Source of the DNA: Rozella allomycis CSF55 | Lineage: Eukaryota > Rozellomycota | Length of the DNA stretch: 64,000 nt | Assembly: GCA_000442015.1 (NCBI GenBank) | Contig: KE560907.1 | Location: 1-64,000 of the forward strand | Direction: 5' to 3' | Shown here: positions 1,226-50,511 of the stretch, in pieces | How the letters are laid out: each line of letters starts with the position of its first letter | Numbering within the stretch: the first letter of the stretch is position 1 | The notes under the pieces: generated by a model | The model's input: the letters and a program-made list of their open reading frames with translations, nothing else | The model's database searches: none | Told to the model about the DNA's origin: nothing | Program-made: the position numbers and the translations under genes

Positions 1226-4200
1226 ATGACCACCGACAAACCCGCATCGATGCATCTATGGCTGTCTTCCTCGCTAGACCAGCTTCTGCAGAGCAAAGAG
1301 TTGCGCAAGCAGCCATCTCTTAAAGAAAAATGCCAAAAGGCGTTTAACAGCCTGAAGCGTAAAAACCACTGTATCATTTAATAGAAATCCAGAAGAACCC
1401 TGACGAGTTATTTGGCGATAGTTTTCAGGTTATAATAGAGAGTCTAGTTGAGAGTTTGCGGCATGTGTTGCGGAATGCGAATGTGATGGGGTCAGTGATG
1501 GATTCGCTGCAAAAGATCATGTCGCATCCGCTGATGAGTGAGGAGTGGATGGTTGGGGAGGAGAAGGCGAGTGAGATGGTGTGTAGGGTTGTGTGTGAGA
1601 TTGCGGAGGAGGTTAGTGATGAGAAGTGTTTTGTGGATTTTATAAAGGTAGTGGAGTGATGATTTGAGTTGAGTAGGTAATGTTTTTGAAGGTGTTTGAA
1701 AGGTGTTGTTGGCGGTAGTGACTGCCAAGGAGGCGTTGATACACCAGGCGTCGTTGCTGATGGTTATGAAGACGATATATAATATGTATTTGGCGAGCAA
1801 GCAGAGTGGGCAGCAGACGATGTTGAAGGGAGCGTTGAATCAAATGATCAATGCGGTGTTTGAGAGGTTGGAGAAGAGTTTCCAGGTAGGATGGGTGAAT
1901 GGATGGCAATCAAGGAGAATAGAGAGTTGTATTTGGAGATATTGGAGATGAAGAGTAAAAGTGAGCAAGAAGAAGCAGTGGAGGGGCAACTAGAGAGTCC
2001 TAAAGTCGGCGAGCGAAAAATGAGTGAAGAAATTAAAAACGTTGATAGAAAGGATAGTGGGAATGAGAGTGAAAGGCGTGCTAATGAGAGAATTGAGAAT
2101 GACGCTACAAGGAAAGACAGTGGACATTCTCAGCATAAGAATCAAGTTGAAACAGAGAAGAAGGAAGTTGAGGAGGTTGAGGTGGTTGAACAAGTTAAAG
2201 ACGTTGAGGGTCACCAACCTACCGATAAAGGAGAAATCGACAATAATCAGACAGATGCTGATGTTAGTAAAGTGCTAGAGAGTGTGTTGGGGGTAAGAAA
2301 AGAAGAAGAGGAAGAAAAGAAGGATGATGTGGGCAAGTATGGAAAGTGTATAAGTAAATAGACTAAACTTTGTAAAAGAGTGTGTGGAAAAGCAGCGAAT
2401 TTCCATTGCAAAGACACGATGGTTCCTGTGTGTGGCAAAGAGTGTAAAATTGAGCATTTGAATAAACTTGAAGAAGAAAGACACAAGCAGGACAAGGTTG
2501 AGAATGAGAGTGAGAATAAGAAGAATAGGATAAAGTGTGAAATGTATTTAAGGGTAAAATAGATTGATGTTGTTTAAAGGATGGGGTTGCGGTGTTGAGA
2601 ACATTTTATAAACTAGCTTCGAAGCCAATAATAGATGCGCCAGCTCCGCCACCAATAGGGCAGGGGTGGGATTTTAGTAAATCGCCGAGTGTGAAGAGTA
2701 GAATACTTGGGTTGGAGTTGTTGTTGTTTGTGTTGAAGAAATATAGTGCTAGTAAGAGACAGAAGGATGATTGAAAGGTTTGATAGAGATTGAAGTGATC
2801 AAGAGGTTTATTGGCAAGGAGATGATGGAACTGATAATCAGCAGTTTGGTGAATTCAATACCGCTTGTTAATGAGATTGGGCTTGAGATGATAATAATGA
2901 TAATGCGGGAGTATAGGCGGGAGTATAAGAAGCAGATTGATGTAGTTGTGAATGAGGTGTTGTTGAATGTGATGCCAGTGAATTCGACAGTGCAGATGAA
3001 GTATTTGGAGGGGTTGATGGAGTTTGATTGTCGGATGATTGTGGAGTTGTATTTGAACTATGATTGTGATTCAGAGGCGATTGATAATCTGTTTGAGAAG
3101 ACGATTAATTGTATTTTGAAGTTGATACAGAATTCTGGGAGTGAGGAGATTAAGATTAGGGCTATTCAGGCGCAGGTTGAGATTATTAAAAAGTTGAGTG
3201 TTGAAATTGAAGATGTAGAAGGGGTGAAGATGGATGGGGTAAAGGTAGAAGGTGTGAAGATGGAGGGGGTGAAGGGTGGTGAGGTAGAGAAGAGAGTTGG
3301 AGAAGAGAAGAGAGTAGAGGGTGATAGTGACAAATCACTTGAATTGAAAGACTCACATACAGTTAGAGAATCCAATGATGACCAACCAACTCCACCATCT
3401 CAAACACTTCAAACTACTACTTCAACTACTAATTCACCAACTACTGCAGATCCATCAGTGGTGAAGATGAGAAAACAAATGATTCAAGAGGGAATAAGAT
3501 TGTTTAATTGGAAACTGAAAAAGGGGATGGAATATTTTTTTGAACACAAGATAATAGAAAGAAACAAGAAAGAGATTGCCAAATTTTTGTTGACAACCGA
3601 GGGATTATCTAAAGAGAACATTGGCGAGTATTTGGGACAGGGAGAAGCTGAGAATATAGAGATAATGCATTGTTTTGTAGAATTGATGAATTTCCATGGA
3701 CTAAAGTTTGTTGAAGCGTTGAGGAAATTTCTGCAGTCGTTTAGACTACCTGGGGAGGCACAAAAGATTGATAGATTCATGTTAAAGTTTGCGCAGCAGT
3801 ACACGTTGAATAATCCGAAAGAGTTTGCGAATGCAGATACCGCGTATGTGTTGGCGTATTCTGTGATAATGTTGAATACGGATTTGCATAATCCGCAGGT
3901 GAAGAATCGGATGAAGAGGGAGGATTTTATCAAGAACAATAGGGGGATTAATGATCATGCGAATTTGAAGGATGAGTATTTGATTGAAATATATAATGAT
4001 ATTTCTGTGAATGAAATTAAAATGAAGAGTGAAGAGTTGATTAATAAGAATGTGAAAGAGTTTGCGAGTGTGAAGAGGAGGAAAGATTCTGTTAGTAATT
4101 CTGAAGATGTAGCCAAGAAAGCCATTGAAGATTTATCAAAGGTAAGCATTGTAATAGGTGAGATGACACAGGTAAGTTGTAATAGTTGAAATGATTACAG

Positions 4201-7200
4201 GTAAATATTACTACTTTAAACTATTCAAAGGTAAATACTACTACTTCAACTCAATACAGGTAAACTCTACAACTTTAACTCAACAAGGTAAACTCTACAA
4301 ACTCTAATTCAAATTTTCTTGGTTATTCGTTTAATAATTATTCTAAAAATATATTCAATTCATGTTGGATGATTTTTTTGAGTTCTATTTCAGGACCAAT
4401 ACAAGAATATGATAAATTGATGATAATAGATTCATGTTTGGAGGGATTCTATTATTCAATAAAGATATGCAGTGTTTATGATTTAAAATATGAAAGAAAT
4501 GCATTTATTAATAGTTTATTAAAATTTACAACAATTCAAACTAAAAATCAAATAAATTTAAAGAATTTAAAAGCAATAAAAATTCTATTGGAAATTTCAG
4601 TAAAATTTGGTGATTATTTAGAATCAAATTGGATTGAAATTTTAAAATGTATTTCTTTGTTAGAAAAATTAGAGTAAATTTTAATTTTGTTTATTTCAAA
4701 GTGAAATTCAGCAATTTAGTTTGTTGATTGATAAAATATTTTCAAATTCACATAAATTGAATTCTAATGCTATTCTACAGTTTGTTAATGCTTTGTGTTC
4801 TGTTGCTATTGATGAGATTAATGTTAAGAGATTGTATTCTATTCAGAAATTAGTTGAAATCTCTTATTACAATATGAATAGAATTAGATTAGAGTGGTCA
4901 AACATTTGGAACATTATCAGCAACACTTTTACTCAAGTAATGAAAGGGTTGTTGAAATGATCATAGGTAGGAGATTGAAGTTGAAATGAGATTAGGTAAG
5001 ATATTTGGAGTTGTAATCATCATAGGTAATCTCGCTACTTGTCCCTTATTATAGGTCGCTTGTAATGTAAATTTGAATATCGCCAATTTCTCTATTGATT
5101 CTTTAAGACAATTAAGCTTTAAATTTCTTGAAAAAGAAGAAATGTCGCAATTCAAATTTCAAAAAGAATTTCTAAAACCATTTGAAGAAATATTCATTGA
5201 ATCTAATCTAGATATTAAAGATTTTGTCATTCGATGTTTACTTGTCATTATTCAAGGTATAATAGAATATAATATTTAATGAAAGGTATAATAGATTAAA
5301 TAAGTTAATGAAAGGTAAAATAGATTGTAGCATCTAATTCAAGGTAATCCACTTTAAAGTTTCTCAATGAAAGGTAAACTACTTTAAAGTTTCTCAATCA
5401 AAGGTAAACTACTTTAAACTACTTAATTAAAGGGAGGGGAAAAAATATAAAATCTGGTTGGAAAAGCATCTTTAACGTTCTATCGTTGGCTGCTCTAGAA
5501 ACAAATGAAAATATTTGTTTATTATCCTTTGATGCAGTCAAATACGTCTGCAAAGAAAGATTAAAAGATCTCGTCTTGAACAATTCATTCTCTGATCTCG
5601 TTCAATCTCTCGTTTCTTTTGCTAAAAACAAGAAATACCCAAAAATAAAGTATTCAATCTCTCTTCATCTTTTCTAGTTTACAAGCAGTTGAATTACTAA
5701 AGAGTGCCATCCCAAGAGTGGCAGAGTTGTGTAGATCAGAACACGAGAGAATAGAAAATGAAATTAATTCAAGCCAAAATGATCTCATCCTCAATTCTTA
5801 TCAAGATGAAGATCCTTCTGTCAGATTCTGGTTTCCAATCCATTTTGGTCTCTATGAAATTCTAATGGAAGGAGATCTGGAAGTTAGAACTCGAGCTTTA
5901 AACTATTTATTCGATTGTCTCAAAGATTACGGAAATTCTTATTCTCAAAGATTCTGGTCTGTCGTTTACAAAAAAGTATTCTCTCCATCCATCTAATTTA
6001 GGTTATTCTACTCATCTTTGTTGATTTAAACAAGAAATCGCCATTAACAACTGAATTCAAAACTGAATGGCAGAGCACAACTCTTGTCCAGGCTTTGCGC
6101 AATGTCATCAATCTATTCTCCTTCTTTTTCGACGATATCCACTTTCTCTTGTCTGATATTCTCTCTCTTCTCTCTCTATGCATCAACCAGGGTACATTAT
6201 CCGAAATTTCATAAATAGAAAATGAGACGTTGGCTAGGATTGGCACCAGTTGTTTGCAGCAGCTGGTCGAAAACAACTATAAGAAATTGGATGCGTCCAT
6301 GTGGCATTTGATTTGCGGGTGTATTGAAGAGCTGGTCGAGTCTACGATGCCTAGAGATTTGTTTCAGTTTGAAAGTAAACAAGGCGATCAAGTTGACGAA
6401 TCTGATATTGAAATAAAAGAACTAAAAGGTGTATTGTGTTTAAATAGTTTAGTTAGAAAGCTCTAGCGGAGAGTTGAATGCCATCGACCTGCCGATCGTT
6501 TCAACGGAAAAGAGGCAGCTGTTCCAATCAATTGTTATCAAGTGTATTCTGCAGCTGCTGATTCTAGAAACAATTAATGAAACGATTGTTGTCCACAAGA
6601 GTGTTTATTCGACAATGAACTGCGATCATATTGTGAGGGTTCTGGATTGCTTGAATAATTCGTATCAGACTGCTAAAGCGTTTAATATGAATATAAGGCT
6701 GAGGCTCAATTTGTTGTCTATTGGTATGGTTGCTGTGTGGGTGATAAAGGGTTTACGAAGCAGCTGCCGAATTTGTTGAAGCAGGAGACTACGAGCATTA
6801 CTGTTTATCTTTCTTTGATCAACAAGGTAACAAATAGTTTTTAGATTTGTTAATAGGTAACAAATAGTTTTTAAATTGATTATAGGTAATATTTAATTAT
6901 TTGGTCTATTTAAAAGGTAATATTTAATTCTTTAATCTATTTAAAAGGTAATATTTAATTCTTCTAAATAAAAGGTCTATTTCGATCAGTCAGGATACAA
7001 CAAGCCGCTCAAATCAGANGAATTAGTTTTTAGATTGATTATAGGTAATAAATAGTTTTAAAATTTGTTATAGGTAAAAATCATGTATTAAATTGATCAA
7101 AGGTAACATTTAACTATTTAGTCTATTTAAAAGGTAACACTTAATTATTTGGTCTATTTAAAAGGTCTATTTCGATCAGTCAGGATACAACAAGCCGCTC

Positions 7201-7494
7201 AAATCAGAAATAGAAAAACGATTCATTGATCTAACGCAAGACGTATTAACTCACTATTCAAAATTAGATCCTGAATACAAGCACAAAATTGCAGCAGCTT
7301 GGAAACCAGTCGTGTTAAAAGTCTTGTCAATCTTTAAAAATATCAACGACGACGCATTTGTGTTGTTTGTGCCGAGGTTATACGACTCGCTGGTCAGGCT
7401 GCTGGATCATGATCTGTCCATTGAAACTAGAGTAGAGCTAAAGTTTATCTTGCTGAGAATCGGCAATTTGTTTGGTATTGTCAATAAAAACTAA
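1226..7494 (+). CDS. SEC7: SEC7/BIG-type Arf guanine nucleotide exchange factor
   Basis: This is the large Arf-GEF that activates Arf1 at the trans-Golgi. About 17 exons give a protein of roughly 1,500 residues. The Sec7 domain (about 3470-4030) has the glutamic-finger stretch TTEGLSKENIGEYL and the motif AYSVIMLNTDLHNPQ. DCB, HUS and HDS regions are recognisable, for example LYLNYDCDSEA before Sec7, and SYYNMNRIRLEWSNIW and FSIDSLRQLSFKFLEK after it. Exon bounds fixed by frame and family fit: 1226-1358, 1385-1647, 1703-1885, 1915-about 2345, about 2379-2553, 2580-2751, 2778-4141, 4288-4673, 4702-4936, 5055-5256, 5433-5649, 5678-5975, 6002-6191, 6219-6428, 6457-6723, 6750-6826, then the last exon ending 7494. 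Ten introns are single (26-29 nt); five are tandem arrays. The intron near 2340 is not resolved; a Cys-rich stretch just after it (VCGKAANFHC...CGKEC) may be a zinc-binding insert. Confidence 0.93.
1648..1702 (+). repeat. Tandem intron array, 2 units (SEC7)
   Basis: Two GT...AG units lie back to back: 1648-1676 (29 nt) and 1677-1702 (26 nt). The preceding exon ends in phase 0 and the next begins at 1703 with a GTG codon leading into LLAVVTAKEALIHQ, a conserved BIG segment. Each unit alone has the size of a normal intron of this gene. Confidence 0.75.
4142..4287 (+). repeat. Tandem intron array, 5 units (SEC7)
   Basis: Five consecutive GT...AG units of 30, 29, 30, 29 and 28 nt run from 4142 to 4287 with no sequence between them; each junction reads AG|GT. 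The first unit has an internal AG|GT at 4157/4158. The array is in phase 0. The next exon opens with a stretch (4288 onward) that matches the start of the last unit, gtaaactctaca, but is read as protein. Confidence 0.82.
4937..5054 (+). repeat. Tandem intron array, 4 units (SEC7)
   Basis: Four GT...AG units of 30, 29, 30 and 29 nt (4937-4966, 4967-4995, 4996-5025, 5026-5054) separate the conserved BIG segments ending NTFTQ and starting VACNVNLNIANFSIDSLR. Family conservation on both sides fixes the outer splice sites. Phase 0; the next exon starts with GT (codon GTC). Confidence 0.85.
5257..5432 (+). repeat. Tandem intron array, 6 units (SEC7)
   Basis: Six GT...AG units of 29, 29, 29, 30, 30 and 29 nt (starts 5257, 5286, 5315, 5344, 5374, 5404) fill 176 nt exactly. 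Units 4-6 are near-copies of each other (gtaa...ctactttaaa); units 1-3 are related but more diverged. The flanking exons join in phase 1 to give CLLVIIQ-GRGKNIKSGWK, a conserved BIG segment, so the outer boundaries are secure. Confidence 0.88.
6827..6974 (+). repeat. Tandem intron array, 5 units (SEC7, first assembly copy)
   Basis: Five GT...AG units of 30, 29, 31, 31 and 27 nt lie between the exon ending SLINK and the exon starting VYFDQSG. Units 1-2 belong to one sequence type (gtaacaaatagttttt) and 3-5 to another (gtaatatttaatt). A second version of the same array, joined across the N at 7019, lies at 7020-7164. Confidence 0.82.
7020..7164 (+). repeat. Second version of the same intron array
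   Basis: After the N at 7019 comes part of a unit, then GT...AG units of 29, 29, 31 and 31 nt ending at 7164. The 44-nt exon start at 6975-7018 then recurs identically at 7165-7208. The units resemble those at 6827-6974 but differ in sequence and length. The simplest reading is a second haplotype or contig end of the same intron, not a real second exon copy. Confidence 0.7.
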
Positions 7495-8430: not shown

Positions 8431-11416
8431 ATGACGCGTCTGGAATCGAAAAAGTAAATGCGATGATTCGGGAATATAGAACGGAGACTAATGCTTCAAA
8501 ATTAAGCTTTGATTTCAGAAGAGGGTCTAGACAGTCCATAACCGGATCAAAAATCTCACTTACCAAGACGGGCTCCATTGCTCGAATCAGGCAAAGCATT
8601 ATGCCTGATAATGTGCCGCAGGCTAATATTCAAGTGTTGGACGATCAGGGGAATGATGTCACACCGGTTTCACTGATACCAAAGAAGAAGACCCAGGGAA
8701 TGGCTAATTCTGGCTCCACTGATACTAAACGATCACACAGCAGTATTGTAAGGTTTATCATGAAAGATTAATAGTCGGAGCAGACGCAGGATTTCTTGCA
8801 CCAGTTTGAATTGAAGCAAATCTCAAATGTTTCGCAGGGNGAATTGAAGCAAATCTCTAATGTATCGCAGGGCGTTTCGAAGAAAGCTCCCACGTCGAAA
8901 TCTCAGTCTACAATGTCTGAAGATGTTGAAGATTCTTCTTCTTATACATCATACGACGATATTCAAGAGTCTCGTGAGCGTAACAGAATACTTTTCTTCG
9001 TGTCATAGAAATAATGGAAGACAAGAACCAACCAGCAATACAGGCAAAGGCATTGACAGAAAAAGACCTTAATATGAAAATCAATATCATTCTAAAAGAA
9101 ACTGAAGACATTTTATTGTATGACTTTCAAGGTAAATGTATTATTCAATGTTTGTAGGTTACTTTGTTCCACCAGATTCAATTGAAATGGATATGGCCAA
9201 AGCACAGAATATGAGATATCAGCAGGTTACATTCAGTTATAATCAATATTAGATTTTAGAGTCGAGAAGCAGAGCGGTTAATTTNTTAAATTTAGTTATA
9301 ATCAATAGTAGATTTTGGAGTCGAGAAGCAGAGCGGTCAATTTAGTTGAGCGAGGAATGCAAACATTACCAAGACTATATAAAAATAAAGACACTCAAGC
9401 TACCGCAAGAAAGCAAATAAATGTTGAATCACAAGTTAATGAGTGGAGCATTTTTGATATTTATGAAGAATTAGCAAGGGAAGAAAATCAAAAGTAAGAA
9501 AAGATAATTTTCATGTTACAGAAACGCGGATGCTCTGGAAGGAGATCCATTGGCTCTGAATAATGCCAAAAGTGATTCTCAGGGATTTAAAGAGAGTGGA
9601 AATATGACTGAAATATCTGAAGATCTATTTGCGTCAATGGATATAGATACAGTGTCAGAGTTTGCTTCATTAATGAGTACAGAAGCTACTGGCAATTCTG
9701 TGTCGGCAGCTCCAGGAGCACAAACTGCTCAGGGCAAACAACTTCAAATGCTTATGCAAGCTGAAATACCAAAACTTTCTCAATTTGATCAAGAATCTTT
9801 GATGGAATCTCTGCGAATAATGGAGAATGCTATTGTAGAAAACAATAATTTTGCAAAACTTTTTGCTTATAGAAATATTAAAGATCCAATGGAGAGAGAA
9901 ATTTCAAATGAATCCAATAATGATCTTGTTGACGACAATGAAGAACAAGCCGAGTCCAAAGTTGTTTCTGATGTTAATTCTTTAGCAACTCACCTTCCTT
10001 CTCTGCAGAATCTTTGGACATTTAGATGTGATCTTGTGAAAGGAAGACCAGTGTTGGGAATAGCATGGAATAAGAAAGACTCTGTACTTTAATTTGAACA
10101 TCTTAAGAATAGGATATTCTAGCTGTTTGCTATGGTGAAATGAATGCATTGATTCCAGGGTCTTCTGTCCATGCAAAGACTAAAGGGGTTGTTCTTTGTT
10201 GGTCTCTTTCAAACATTGAAGTAAATTGTTTTTGAAATGATAAAAGTATCCACAAAGAATTTACAAAAAAGATTCGGCAGCCATCTGTGTTGACTTTTCT
10301 AGTTGTAATCCATACCTTTTAGCTGCTGGTTTCGCCGATGGTAGCATTAGAATTTATGATGTCAGAGAAAGGCATGACGAAGCAGTTTTAGATTCATCGT
10401 AAGAAAATTAACTTTAATAAATATTTGTGAAACTGGTGGAAAGCACCATGAGGCCGTTTGGGATGTAAGATGGATAGAACGTGAAAAGCTCAACGGAGAA
10501 GAAAATTCACAAAAGGAAAGCCTAATTTCGGTTTCAAATGATAGCAGAATTTGCCAATGGATGTTGCGAAAGGGGTTAGAATATTCTGGTAACGTTTTGT
10601 CAGCATTTTTGTGAGATTTAATGGTTATGAGAAGAATATCAAAAGCTCAAACAAGTGAAAAGAATATGACATCATCTGTTATCTCTAGACATACTGGAGG
10701 TCTTTGCTTGGAATTCCACCCAGAAGATTCCGCCATGTAAATATACCATTGTAAAAATAAAAGATATCTAGTAGGAACAGAGGACGGGGATATTCATAGA
10801 TGTTCTTGTTCTTACAATGAGCAATATCTGGAAACATACATTGGGCATTCTGGGCCAGTCTATAAAGTTAAATCATCGCCATTCTTAAGTTCTGCTTTTC
10901 TTTCGTGCTCAGCCGATTGGTCTGTTTGTCTTTGGACTTTGGAAAACACCACGCCAACATTTAAATTTCAATCTGGAAGAGACGCAATCACAGATGTTGC
11001 TTGGTCACCCTTGAGTTCAACTGTTTTTGCCAACACGACAAAAGATGGAAGAATTGAAATTTGGGATCTTCGATCATCCACGTAAGTTTTATTTATATTT
11101 AGCATCAGACTCGATCCATGTGTGACTCATACAGTTCTTGACAGAGTTTTGACTTGCGTTTCATTTGCACCAGACGGGCCAATTGTTTTAACTGGTGATG
11201 ACAATGGGTCTATTTCAGTGTATAAACTAACTAGAGTGTNCAGTGTATAAACTAACCAGAGTGTATTCAGAGGCAGTGATGGAACGAATCACATCAAGAA
11301 TTTTAGGAAGTAACTCAAATTTGTACAATGCTGAAAACGATAGAAAATATCAAGCGCAAGAGTTGCAAGATATTTTGAAAAACAAAAATTTGCTTTTGGA
11401 AAATAAAAAGAAATAA
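8431..11416 (+). CDS. DNAI4: Axonemal dynein intermediate chain (DNAI4/WDR78 type)
   Basis: This WD-repeat protein fits the DNAI4/WDR78 (IC138-like) intermediate chain of the inner-arm I1/f dynein. Diagnostic segments in order: VLDDQGNDVTP, ERGMQTLPRLYKNKDTQ, NLWTFRCDLVKGRPVLGIAWN, YLVGTEDGDIHRCSCSYNEQ, GHSGPVYKV and SCSADWSVCLW. The start at 8431 follows from a 26-nt intron at 8454-8479 that joins MTRLESK to KTETNASKLSFD. About a dozen introns of 26-29 nt are visible; one at 10399-10427 seems to end in TG rather than AG. Single-N joins with duplicated flanks interrupt the gene at 8840, 9285 and 11240. Its presence implies a motile flagellated stage. Confidence 0.92.
8808..8872. repeat. Duplicate pair at assembly join (N at 8840)
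   Basis: A 32-nt stretch coding ELKQISNVSQG occurs on both sides of the N with two base differences. It is probably one locus represented twice by overlapping contig ends. Confidence 0.75.
9217..9345. repeat. Duplicate pair at assembly join (N at 9285)
   Basis: About 55 nt covering the end of an intron and the start of the exon ILESRSRAVN recur on both sides of the N with a few substitutions (for example attttaga versus attttgga). Probably two alleles of one locus. Confidence 0.72.
10399..10427 (+). other. Candidate 29-nt intron with GT...TG ends (DNAI4)
   Basis: The donor gtaag is normal. The family alignment needs the next exon to read ETGGKHHEAVWDV, which places the acceptor after ...atatttg, ending TG. 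Using the nearest AG (10442-10443) gives the wrong frame and a quick stop. The 29-nt length matches the other introns, so the acceptor is either non-canonical or the result of a base error. Confidence 0.55.
11218..11264. repeat. Duplicate pair at assembly join (N at 11240)
   Basis: About 22 nt (cagtgtataaactaac...agagtgt) recur on both sides of the N with one base change, inside the last exon of the dynein gene. Confidence 0.7.
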
Positions 11417-46415: not shown

Positions 46416-49400
46416 ATGATTGGCCTCTCTCTATTTTTCATTCTGTCGGTGCACATTCTGTGCCTAAATTCATACTTATTTAATTCATGTTCGGGCGGTA
46501 CTCTTGATTGTGCGAAGCAAAATATTAATAACCCGCTGTCAACGACTGTTCAAAATAATTCAATTCCGTGCACCTATATTGGGTGCCCATCAATACAGTT
46601 GAATATACCATCGGGAACATATGCAATCTCAAATAAGGTTTTCGACGGATGCGTTACGTTTGGTCAATCAGCGCCATTCTTTTACGCTAGCTCATCAGCA
46701 TTTTACAATACTCTAGTCTTACAAAATGTGACATTCAGAAACTGCAAGACTCCATCTGGATTAATTATAACAATGTCTGTAAATTTGGTTTTACGAAATT
46801 TGACTGTTCAAAACAATACCTCTACCGGATCGATTTTAAGTTTAGAGAAATTTTGGACTACAAAAATACATGATAGTGTTTTTGAAAATAATTACAATGA
46901 GGAAAACGGAGGGGCCCTAGAGTTGTTGGGAATGATAACCAGTACAACAGCATACGATGTGTCTGTACTGGAGATTGGTGGTAAATTTCTATGTCGGAAC
47001 AATACATCCAAAGGATTAGGAGGTTGTTTATTCATGAGCAATATCCAGCTTAACTTTTTACAAGATAACGTGAATATCGAAATGTCGAAAAACAATGCAA
47101 CTAGAGGTGGTGCTATCTATTGGGAACAGATGTATCCAAAAGTTGATTCAATCTCATCTTTATCGAGGAATGTTTTAATGAACTTTACATCCAATGTGGC
47201 AACGTATTCTGGAGGTGCATTGTATTTGGATGGTGTCAATTTCTATGGTTTTCTTTCAAATTTAGTTATGGATGGAAACCAAGCATATTACGGCGGTGCA
47301 TTTACTATAGATAATTCATTTATTACAATGATTGGAATATTTACCAACAACTTTGCATCGTATGGTGCTGTATTTTGTATAAACAGAACTTCTGATGCAT
47401 CATCTTTAACAATTGGGGGAAATGTTAGAGGAAATTATGCGAAATATAGTGGAAGTTTTGGGCATCTTGTTGTTTTTAATTCGTCATATTTGATTCTGGA
47501 TAGCGTTTATGTTGGAACAGATATAAACTTTAGTTCAAACGATTTGACTCCAGTATCATCATGTGTGTTTTTGATAAATTCGTCACAATATTATTGCCAG
47601 ATGTCGATAGATAGATCAATTATTTATGGATCCACTAGAGCTGTTACAAGCACCTCAAGTATGATAAGTTCCACGAAGGCAAGGTTAAGCAGCAGTATGT
47701 CATCGACAGTAGCATCATCAACAGTTTCTAGTTCAAAATCGCAAACTTCATCAACATTACAAACCGCCTCAATCTTGACTACATCTTCATCAAAGCAAAC
47801 TGTAGAATTTACTATTTCTTCTTTTTCATCTTCGTCATACTTAGGCCGCGTTTCGATAACGTCAAGCACTTCTTTTCAAACGTTTTCCCCGAGTTATGAA
47901 TCAAAAATAAGCAATAGTTTTATAACGGAAGCATTTACTGATTTTCAAACAAGTAGAACAACATCTTTAACTGCGTCTTCTATTCAATCAATATCAACAC
48001 CCTTATTTATAGGATCGACTTTGTCATCTACAGTGACGACGCCTATCCAATCATCATCTACATCATCAACTGTAAAATCAACATCTACAGCATCTTCAGC
48101 CTCTTCATCANTCGAGTTATGAATCAAAAACAAGCAATAGTTTTACAACGGAAGCATTTACTGATTTTTCAACAAGTAGAACAACATTTTCAAGTGCGTC
48201 TTCTATTCAATTAATATCATCATCAATATCAACACCCTTATTTATAGGATCGACTGTGTCATCTACAGTGACGACGCCTATCCAATCTTCATCTACATTA
48301 TCAACTGCAAAATCCACATCTACAACATCTTCAACGTCTTCATCAACCGTATCATCCTCAGCATTCTCAACTACAGTATCAACAACGCTATCATCATCTA
48401 CATCACCATCTACAATAATGGAATCCAAGCAATCAAAATCTACATTAATATTTACATTAACATCTTCTACAATGTCATCTTATATGACCATACAGTCAAC
48501 ATCTGCAATATCAAAATCTACAGTATCAACGTATACACTTTATGCNTATGCAATCAACATCTATATTAACATCTTCTACAATGTCATCTTATATGGTCAT
48601 ACAATCAACATCTGCAATATCAAAATCTACAGTATCAACGTATACACTTTATGCTTCTACATTTACTTCTTTAATGCCTTCAATATCTTCTACGCTCTTA
48701 TCTTCTACAGTCNNNNNNNNNNNNNNNNNNNNNNNNNNNNNNNNNNNNNNNNNNNNNNNNNNNNNNNNNNNNNNNNNNNNNNNNNNNNNNNNNNNNNNNN
48801 NNNNNNNNNNNNNNNNNNNNNNNNNNNNNNNNNNNNNNNNNNNNNNNNNNNNNNNNNNNNNNNNNNNNNNNNNNNNNNNNNNNNNNNNNNNNNNNNNNNN
48901 NNNNNNNNNNNNNNNNNNNNNNNNNNNNNNNNNNNNNNNNNNNNNNATTATATTATTTCTAGTTCTACAGAATCAAGTAGTTCTTTAACAACTTCATCTA
49001 TAACTGGAATGACTGCAGCTTCATCAGTTGCATTTCCAATAACAACTGTACTAGTTGGATCTGCAACAGGAGCGACTGTTTTAGCGGCCATGTTAGGAAT
49101 TTTAGTTTATTTTAGAAGAAGAAAACAAGGATTGAAAAGAAATAATAAAACTAAAAAGCAATTAGCTTTAAGTGGAGTCAACCTTTTACAAAATAAATCA
49201 AGAGAAAATATTTCACAGAAACTAAAAATAGATCCAATTATTGTTAAAGATTCAATTAAATTTAAGAATGAAAATAAATTGTATTTTGATCCTGATAAAA
49301 CTTACAATGTAAATTTAAATCATTCAAAGATTGTAAACATGAATGATGTCTCTCAATTCATTGCAAAAGTCATAAGAAAAGATTCAGACGCTACAATGTC

Positions 49401-50511
49401 TAAAACAATTGACGTTTCTAACACTACAATTTTAGGTAAAAATATTCATGGAATATAAAAGATAATATTAGCGTTCCTGGCTACATGATTCTTGACTTTA
49501 AGAATGATTTAATTTTAGACTTGAAATCAAATCTTGGCAGTGGGGCAACCGCTCAAGCTGTAGTGAGTGGAAAATTATTAAACGATCTTTTCATCTTTAG
49601 AAGCGAAACAAGAGACGTCGCAATAAAATACTACAATGGTATATTAACTTTCATAAACTCTAGTAGATTCTGAAGATTTAGCTGATCTATATTTTGAAAT
49701 TGCAATTATGAAGTACTGAACATCTCCAAAATAAATTTAGCTCCCTTTTAGAAAAAAGAAACATCGCAAAGTTTGTTGGCTACTCCATAGAGCCAAGAGC
49801 CGTTGTCATGAAAAAGTATGAAGCTTCTTTACACGACGTTATCCACAATTGGAAAAGTCCCATTTCTATTGAGCAATTAATGCTTTCTGCTAAAGATATC
49901 ATCTTTGGCTTAAATGGTAGTTTGTTGCTTTAATCAAAATAGAAATGCATTCAACTGGCCTTGTTCATTTTGACGTCAAACCAAGTATTTTCTAAATATT
50001 TAATAAATCAGAAAATGTTCTAATTCAGTTTGACAAGAAACCATTTTTCACTTGTTATCTTTGTGATTTTGGGTTTTCAAATGTGCTTGGTTCAAAATCT
50101 TCAAGAAAGAAATTGGTGGCGGGGTTGAAAGGTCAAGTGAAAATTGGCATGACAAGCGCTTATGCAGCTCCAGAAGTAATCATGCTTATCAAAAACAAAT
50201 AGATGATTCACAGAATGTATTCAGATGATCCGATTCCTGAAGTCAGTGATAAAGATTTCGCTATTGATATTTACGCATACTGCATTTCAGTCTATGAATT
50301 GCTGACGAGAAAAGATCCTTGGCCTAACAAGACTGAAAAACAAATCATAGAAGACGTTTACATTAAAAAATTAACTCCACAGTTTCTAAATATTTCAAAG
50401 TTTGATGGAAATTTTGTTAATTTAATAAAGAGGGGCTGGAATTTTAATCCAAACTTTAGGCCTTCTACGAGTGACTTTATTAGATATTTCGAGTCGAATG
50501 AAAATAAATAA
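46416..50511 (+). CDS. Receptor-like protein kinase: beta-helix ectodomain, mucin stalk, TM, kinase
   Basis: Signal peptide MIGLSLFFILSVHILC; residues about 60-405 form a right-handed beta-helix with repeated GGA-type motifs (NGGALELLG, RGGAIYWEQ, SGGALYLDG, YGGAFTIDN). A Ser/Thr-rich stalk of at least 450 residues follows, broken by N joins at 48111 and 48546 and a 234-N gap. Then a TM helix (VLVGSATGATVLAAMLGILV) with a basic stop (YFRRRK), a juxtamembrane linker, and a kinase (49486-50511) assembled over six introns of 26-28 nt: G-loop LGSGATAQAVVSG, Lys in DVAIKYY, HFDVKPKNVLI, CDFGFS, AAPE, DIYAYCISVYELLTRKDPW. Key catalytic residues are present, so it should be active; HFD instead of HRD makes it non-RD. 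TKL-type Ser/Thr kinase most likely. Confidence 0.82.
47891..48330. repeat. Duplicate pair in the mucin stalk (N at 48111)
   Basis: About 215 nt of Ser/Thr-rich coding DNA appear on both sides of the N with several substitutions and small indels. Either allelic contig ends or true repeats of the stalk; the low complexity makes the choice hard. Confidence 0.6.
48430..48655. repeat. Duplicate pair in the mucin stalk (N at 48546)
   Basis: About 105 nt (caatcaacatctgc...tatacactttatgc) recur on both sides of the N, with only a few differences. The frame is not kept across the N as written, which fits an artificial join. Confidence 0.62.
48713..48946. other. Assembly gap of 234 N
   Basis: Unsequenced stretch inside the Ser/Thr-rich stalk. 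The stalk's true length and any further repeats in it are unknown. Confidence 0.99.

Follow-up and report, generated by a model that had tools for sequence, protein, structure and literature searches.

The gene predicted to encode a SEC7/BIG-type ARF guanine-nucleotide exchange factor in Rozella allomycis, a parasite of the fungus Allomyces for which a triploid pattern has been reported (PMC6784888), contains five introns built as head-to-tail arrays of GT...AG units that abut one another with no exon between them. The gene lies in the window analyzed here, the stretch of DNA formed by bases 1 to 64000 of contig 87, within a genome assembly of 9,970,177 bp in 213 contigs. Such arrays are likely to be minisatellites in which a whole intron is the repeated unit, copied via microhomology at AG|G(T) and probably spliced unit by unit. 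Minisatellites consist of head-to-tail related units of tens of nucleotides (nt) whose copy number differs between alleles. The features of the SEC7 gene are as follows.

1250 to 7494, + strand: SEC7/BIG-type ARF guanine-nucleotide exchange factor gene (gene model; start codon uncertain; stop codon at 7492-7494 placed by eye)
1648 to 1702, + strand: intron array 1, 2 units (29, 26 nt); exon context AAAG|GTGT
4142 to 4287, + strand: intron array 2, 5 units (30, 29, 30, 29, 28 nt); exon context AAAG|GTAA; in a non-conserved linker
4288 to 4318, + strand: exon start after array 2, 0.77 identical to the last array 2 unit, without its 3' AG
4937 to 5054, + strand: intron array 3, 4 units (30, 29, 30, 29 nt); exon context TCAA|GTCG
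5257 to 5432, + strand: intron array 4, 6 units (29, 29, 29, 30, 30, 29 nt); exon context CAAG|GGAG
6827 to 6974, + strand: intron array 5, haplotype A, 5 units (30, 29, 31, 31, 27 nt); exon context CAAG|GTCT
7019: lone N joining two unmerged haplotype copies (flank comparison)
7021 to 7164, + strand: array 5, haplotype B, first unit truncated, then 29, 29, 31, 31 nt; whole units at 7045-7164
1359 to 1384, + strand: single intron, 26 nt (gene model, as for all single introns below)
1886 to 1914, + strand: single intron, 29 nt
2354 to 2380, + strand: single intron, 27 nt
2554 to 2579, + strand: single intron, 26 nt
2752 to 2777, + strand: single intron, 26 nt
4674 to 4701, + strand: single intron, 28 nt
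5650 to 5677, + strand: single intron, 28 nt
5976 to 6001, + strand: single intron, 26 nt
6192 to 6218, + strand: single intron, 27 nt
6429 to 6456, + strand: single intron, 28 nt
6724 to 6749, + strand: single intron, 26 nt

The predicted protein matched the Pfam families Sec7 and Sec7-like_HDS and a solved Sec7 (8ucq). The five arrays (2, 5, 4, 6, and 5 units) were recovered at the coordinates of the initial annotation of the window by a gene finder whose training was confined to this genome, and all 22 SEC7 units were 26 to 31 nt long, began with GTA, and ended in AG. The ten single introns of 26 to 29 nt reported in that annotation were right in size and one short in number, as the gene model contains 11, and the repeat stretch at 7024 to 7164, inside the range given there, is a second haplotype copy of array 5 and not a separate array. 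Chains of at least three AGGT motifs at 24- to 33-nt spacing numbered six on the + strand of the window, all within 1648 to 7165, and none on the - strand; all arrays of contig 87 fell in a single gene of the 34 predicted there. The arrays had been described as occurring nowhere else in the window, which is correct for the window, but the feature itself is genome-wide. Scans of the window for tRNAs and Rfam families found nothing, and no second public Rozella SEC7 model was present among the 120 of 946 listed. An exon of the SEC7 gene also contains a 30-nt coding tandem repeat (3215 to 3275), with two AGGT motifs in or around it, which looks like an ordinary low-complexity coding repeat.

The genome was searched for AGGTA, 21 to 27 letters, AGGTA, 21 to 27 letters, and AGGTA, a pattern that demands exact GTA and spacing. 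The search for intron-spaced AG|GT units proposed in the initial annotation was borne out, with 179 such triplets at 26- to 32-nt spacing (84 and 95 on the two strands), compared with 0 at 34- to 40-nt spacing, 2 at 17- to 23-nt spacing, and 44 for a pattern with reversed letters. A chance origin of the intron-sized AGGTA spacing is excluded genome-wide. Three narrower searches accounted for 177 of the 179 matches. The 171 of 179 matches listed formed 85 arrays in 46 gene-sized clusters (<3.5 kb apart), a working figure that includes haplotype copies (such as that at 7042 to 7136 of contig 87), with location in a gene checked for a minority of the arrays. These 85 arrays contained 2 (40 arrays), 3 (23), 4 (13), 5 (5), 6 (2), 7 (1), and 11 (1) units, and 39 pairs of neighboring arrays were <3.5 kb apart, compared with 1.2 expected at random. 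The longest array among the matches listed (contig 139, 35201 to 35519) had 11 or more units over ~320 nt, apparently in two successive unit families. Several arrays were located within a few kilobases of a contig end (contigs 60, 87, 118, 152, 160, and others); either contigs break at polymorphic arrays, or these genes lie near chromosome ends.

The gene finder learned from 251,039 bp of this genome, 10,000 bp of which read N (the all-N stretch in the sample is L047, contig 158:1-10000). It permits, and does not require, introns with no exon between them, permits long introns at a penalty, and sets the GT and AG ends of units by construction. Arrays were predicted in 12 of the 63 genes scoring ≥25 in the sampled stretches, a density that is not representative, as 15 of the 20 stretches were picked around search hits. 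Genes with arrays included those for SEC7, TOP2, RPC1, mitochondrial RNA polymerase, PRP8, TRAP1-type Hsp90, and two P-type ATPases, as well as a protein read here as HYDIN-like. The 330 predicted intron sites comprised 288 single introns, which are predictions with false ones included, 34 arrays, and 8 sites with a piece of >40 nt.

Curation removed 6 of the 34 predicted arrays and re-entered 1, leaving 29 distinct arrays with 113 units and lengths of 54 to 231 nt. The arrays removed were the second haplotype copy at 7045 of contig 87, L031 4754 and L035 7579 (taken as haplotype copies at lone Ns), L031 3690 (which spans a lone N), L034 3160 (gene model in the wrong frame), and L042 3649, which was dropped because its first unit, of 20 nt, was false and was then restored after manual correction of its start. 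The 3' end of the L031 4858 array was shifted 4 nt by hand, so that the downstream exon start changes from T to GT. The wrong-frame L034 model is also the source of one of the 29 arrays kept (4140) and of 9 of the 288 single introns; an earlier gene model of L034 reads as PRP8. PRP8 is a core spliceosome protein, and its gene (L034, contig 134) itself bears intron arrays.

Adjacent units of an array were related to each other. Nearly all curated units (112/113) began with GTA, and identity was measured on the unit core, without the first three and last two letters. Core identity averaged 0.683 between adjacent units (80 pairs) and 0.580 between non-adjacent units of the same array (109 pairs), compared with 0.531 for other arrays of the same gene, 0.526 between genes, and 0.525 for shuffled sequences (first catalogue). 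No sequence family was common to units of different genes. In L032, the array had the form ABAB plus one, a duplication of a two-unit block.

Arrays and single introns differed in exon context. The upstream exon ended in AG at 25 of 29 arrays and 64 of 288 single introns, and the downstream exon started with G at 26 of 29 and 111 of 288, respectively. Both together, the AG|G context, were found at 22 of 29 arrays and 25 of 288 single introns (Fisher test, P = 3e-15). An uncurated count of 29 sites agreed in direction (upstream AG, 24/29; downstream G, 26/29). With L034 left out, AG|G was more frequent at single introns of genes with arrays (10/61) than elsewhere (13/218; P = 0.016), as expected if some of these are arrays of size one, and the stricter AG|GT was no different (2/61 and 7/218). 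An intron in the AG|G context has AG|G on either side of it, which provides 3 to 4 letters of homology for misalignment by one intron, and this flank homology is the simplest reason for the location of arrays at AG|G. The tandem duplication at AG|GT put forward in the initial annotation is supported by related neighbors, the L032 block duplication, AG|G flanks, and haplotype differences, and an origin by duplication of whole introns at the DNA level appears well supported by these sequence comparisons.

The mechanism proposed begins with an intron in the AG|G(T) context, which would be flanked on both sides by the same 3 to 4 letters (AG|GT...AG|G). Whole units could then be gained or lost, with no effect on the mRNA, when slippage or unequal crossing-over shifts the alignment by exactly one intron. 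Units change quickly, and those of the two haplotypes differ. In the pre-mRNA, units would be removed singly or a few at a time, with each AG|GT junction serving as the acceptor of one unit and the donor of the next and a zero-length exon between them. A partly spliced product would be a shorter array of the same kind, with the reading frame restored once all units were gone. A spliceosome tuned to introns of ~25 to 33 nt would keep every internal junction under selection.

Several observations weigh against this interpretation. Array units were longer than single introns (28.9 versus 27.5 nt; 28 arrays and 287 single introns without N, P = 2e-18), which is not predicted by a model in which each unit is simply an ordinary intron. 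Of 80 adjacent pairs, only 37 exceeded the 99th percentile of between-gene pairs. No clear branch-point motif was found in units or single introns: TRAY was present in 54 of 112 units (shuffled, 40.9; standard deviation [SD], 4.7), and YTRAY was present in 27 of 112 units (shuffled, 20.3; SD, 4.1) and 66 of 287 single introns (shuffled, 55.2; SD, 6.3). Since GT and AG are what the gene finder uses to delimit units, the intactness of junctions is in part a product of the method. Of the 8 sites among 330 with a piece of >40 nt, 3 span a lone N and 5 are unproved longer introns (73, 96, 183, 210, and 218 nt), by which a size ceiling for the spliceosome is not proven; the 218-nt prediction bypasses a stop codon and probably reflects an error of the gene model. 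Finally, 3 of 14 array sites compared with conserved proteins did not give a clean join. At RPC1 array 1, yeast and the public model P0122 each have 6 residues more than the excision model; at the Hsp90/TRAP1-like site (L030, contig 60), one residue too many was left at the join after the 4-unit array was excised; and the join at SEC7 array 2 falls within a non-conserved linker, two residues from a gap of 3 residues.

The longer introns and the greater unit length would fit removal of each array in one step, as an ordinary intron of ~54 to 320 nt in which the units form a tandem repeat whose start coincides with splice sites by accident. Introns of this size are normal in many fungi, and the outermost sites alone give the same mRNA; because whole and unit-wise removal yield the same product, protein alignments cannot separate the two. 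Removal in one step is nonetheless unlikely. Only 2 of 287 single introns without N exceeded 33 nt (35 and 38 nt). A motif-free search for tandem repeats with periods of 23 to 35 returned 44 regions (26 intronic, 8 spanning a lone N, and 10 in exons), and the 26 intronic repeats contained 107 AGGT motifs and a single stretch of >40 nt without one, which spans a lone N. Internal junctions removed with the whole array would decay, with ~17 of 75 expected intact by chance if free to change (four letters at 0.687 identity), yet none was lost in these repeats outside the assembly gap. Internal donors were GTA in 83 of 84 cases and were as strong as outer donors. Only two checks do not depend on how the gene finder defines units, namely the repeats found without a motif and the scarcity of introns of double length.

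The rarity of long introns, the preservation of internal junctions, and the strength of internal donors together favor unit-wise removal, and stepwise splicing through zero-length exons is likely on this sequence evidence. It follows from the anatomy that removal of any subset of units leaves a shorter array with working ends, so that no order would be needed. A broader proposal, for which the chances are about even, is that the Rozella spliceosome has a hard window near 25 to 33 nt and that longer introns exist only as obligate chains of mini-introns, with up to 11 or more zero-exon reactions, made by a fast intron minisatellite process at AG|G. On this proposal, introns would be multiplying in a living genome, with each AG|GT acting as donor, acceptor, and recombination site.

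Arrays could instead have grown by repeated intron insertion, through reverse splicing or an introner-like element, at AG|G sites recreated each time, an explanation given slightly less credence than removal in one step. AGGT has been described as a proto-splice site of preferred intron gain (PMC3443670), and it would be regenerated by insertion. Moreover, 13 of 80 adjacent pairs were no more alike than the median of between-gene pairs, and clearly related neighbors were found in only 19 of 28 arrays (TRF repeats and core identities). The higher identity of adjacent units than of units from other arrays of the same gene, the two-unit block duplication in L032, and the lack of a family shared by units of different genes argue for duplication in place. 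Birth of the arrays from a duplicated exon (tandem genomic duplication) was considered separately and rejected: of 26 arrays, one resembled its downstream exon (>99th percentile) and one its upstream exon, and the corresponding counts for single introns were 5 and 4 of 283.

At 14 array sites, the joins produced by excising entire arrays were compared with solved homologues to assess whether the mRNA keeps any unit, whole or in part; arrays outside the aligned parts of these genes, such as the first RPO41 array, are not among the 14. Gap-free joins were obtained at 11 sites in six proteins. These were two in TOP2 (TDQ|DHDGSHIKG and KYYK|GLGTST), one in PRP8 (IIIK|GSELQLPF), two in a P-type ATPase (EIKANK|ALEALTSL and AMT|GDGVNDAP), one in mitochondrial RNA polymerase (RPO41; GRDYK|GAKSVN), SEC7 arrays 3 and 4 (against 8ucq and a further homologue), and RPC1 arrays 2, 3, and 4 (against yeast). 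The possibility raised in the initial annotation that parts of the arrays are exons was thereby answered at these 11 sites and not at the 3 described above.

Retention in mRNA would be consistent with the public RPC1 model, which codes through 18 nt of a unit at a place where the yeast protein is also 6 residues longer, with the extra residue at the Hsp90 site, and with the apparent exonized unit that opens the exon after SEC7 array 2. The predicted protein of RPC1 (contig 160) was 98% identical to the public R. allomycis CSF55 protein P0122, and the 6 extra residues of P0122, IERRLK, match the translated final 18 nt of unit 2 in RPC1 array 1. The human protein does not have these 6 residues, and full excision is gap free against it by inference. 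At the Hsp90 site, the array end or the splice choice is off in the gene model. The SEC7 sequence at 4288 to 4318 probably arose from a unit whose acceptor was lost and which now encodes part of a non-conserved linker. Only for 3 of 102 units would retention of that one unit be silent, and tandem repeats in exons (periods of 24, 27, and 30) had no gene-strand AGGT in 9 of 10 regions; the SEC7 repeat at 3215 to 3275 has two AGGT motifs, and L035:9534-9670 has three, on the other strand. Retention of array parts in mRNA is quite improbable as a general account, and as judged from the alignments, most of the sites compared are intronic, with GT...AG ends and a restored conserved reading frame as in U2-type spliceosomal introns. 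The public model has one residue in place of 16 at RPC1 array 4, against both yeast and human, an example of how gene models can go wrong at arrays.

Haplotype copies within the assembly bear on both turnover and authenticity. Flanks of the lone N at 7019 were 87% identical, and the 44 nt of exon following each copy of array 5 were identical at 44 of 44 positions, whereas the arrays differed. On contig 87, 12 of 17 lone Ns marked overlaps that were 87 to 98% identical, and 5 showed none; in the window, lone Ns between flanks 88 to 98% identical were observed at 8840, 9285, 11240, 14055, 14478, 15111, 27614, 48111, and 48546. From the flank comparisons, such lone Ns are read as unmerged haplotype copies that break or duplicate genes in the assembly, and the reported triploid pattern of R. 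allomycis (PMC6784888) fits such copies. Around the N at 6219 of L031, the haplotypes differed at 2 places in 248 nt of exon and one single intron, one of them inside the single intron, and the arrays on both sides differed in units; haplotype unit counts are only partly comparable, since the N truncates each copy at one end. A predicted Ser/Thr-rich surface-like protein at 46416 to 50511 of the window has repeat copies around Ns and a 234-base N run.

An assembly artefact, in which short reads were piled into false tandem copies, might be suspected from the lone Ns that mark unmerged overlaps, some inside or beside arrays, and from an organism that is not haploid (PMC6784888), but it is very unlikely, and the least probable of the explanations considered, as array units are mostly diverged and not identical copies, intronic arrays in the sampled stretches run in the gene sense, and IERRLK is present in the public RPC1 protein from a different contig (6,811 bp versus 68,741 bp here), taken for another assembly. 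Because P0122 contains these residues, encoded by 18 nt of an array unit, the second contig carries that unit too, and the artefact that the initial annotation had named as a possible refutation is improbable on this account. The arrays are real and genome-wide.

If the minisatellite interpretation is true, the arrays offer material on how small and strict the intron-definition window of a spliceosome can be and on whether multistep removal via zero-length exons can be obligate and free of order. They would also offer material on intron multiplication at the DNA level. Since haplotypes in one assembly differ in units, intron turnover could be watched as it happens.

In a limited literature search, no earlier description of consecutive complete introns without exons was found, in agreement with the statement in the initial annotation that none was known. 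A fungal intron survey gives a density of 2.53 introns per kb for Rozella, with no mention of arrays in the portion of the survey available (PMC8476143), and in the ciliate literature checked, which concerns ultra-short introns such as those of Paramecium, no tandem arrays are mentioned in the portions available (including PMC12862383). Each of the systems compared shares one trait with the Rozella arrays, and none has consecutive complete introns without exons, as far as the sources were searched. Introner-like elements belong to a family common to many genes, whereas Rozella units have no such family. Intron gain by AGGT tandem genomic duplication shares an AGGT-ended duplication that yields a spliceable segment (PMC3443670, PMC4974935), but there the new intron arises from exon, whereas in Rozella an existing intron is multiplied. 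The Cryptococcus gene CNN00420 shares a change in intron number within a population via repeat expansion (PMC2395259); there, identical introns 3, 4, and 5 of six were gained in repetitive DNA and are read here as separated by exon sequence, whereas Rozella copies have no exon between them. The polyubiquitin gene UBC shares tandem AGGT sites that act as donor or acceptor (PMC10809524), but its repeats are coding ubiquitin monomers and the choice of site alters the protein, whereas Rozella units are introns and the mRNA is unchanged.

Stwintrons, described in Hypoxylaceae, share a complex intervening sequence removed by consecutive splicing reactions (PMC8469720, PMC9024468). They are nested, with a splice element split and a fixed order, whereas Rozella units lie side by side and are complete and free in order; no internal intron interrupts a splice element of an external one in the Rozella arrays. 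Recursive splicing at ratchet points in Drosophila and mammals shares abutting AG|GT and stepwise, exon-less removal (PMC6110457, PMC2773006), and abutting AG|GT inside an intron is present in Rozella, whereas a kilobase-long intron is not. The fly segments studied were nearly all >1 kb; in Rozella, 2 to 11 consecutive units of ~29 nt follow one another, each the size of a normal intron and apparently duplicated.

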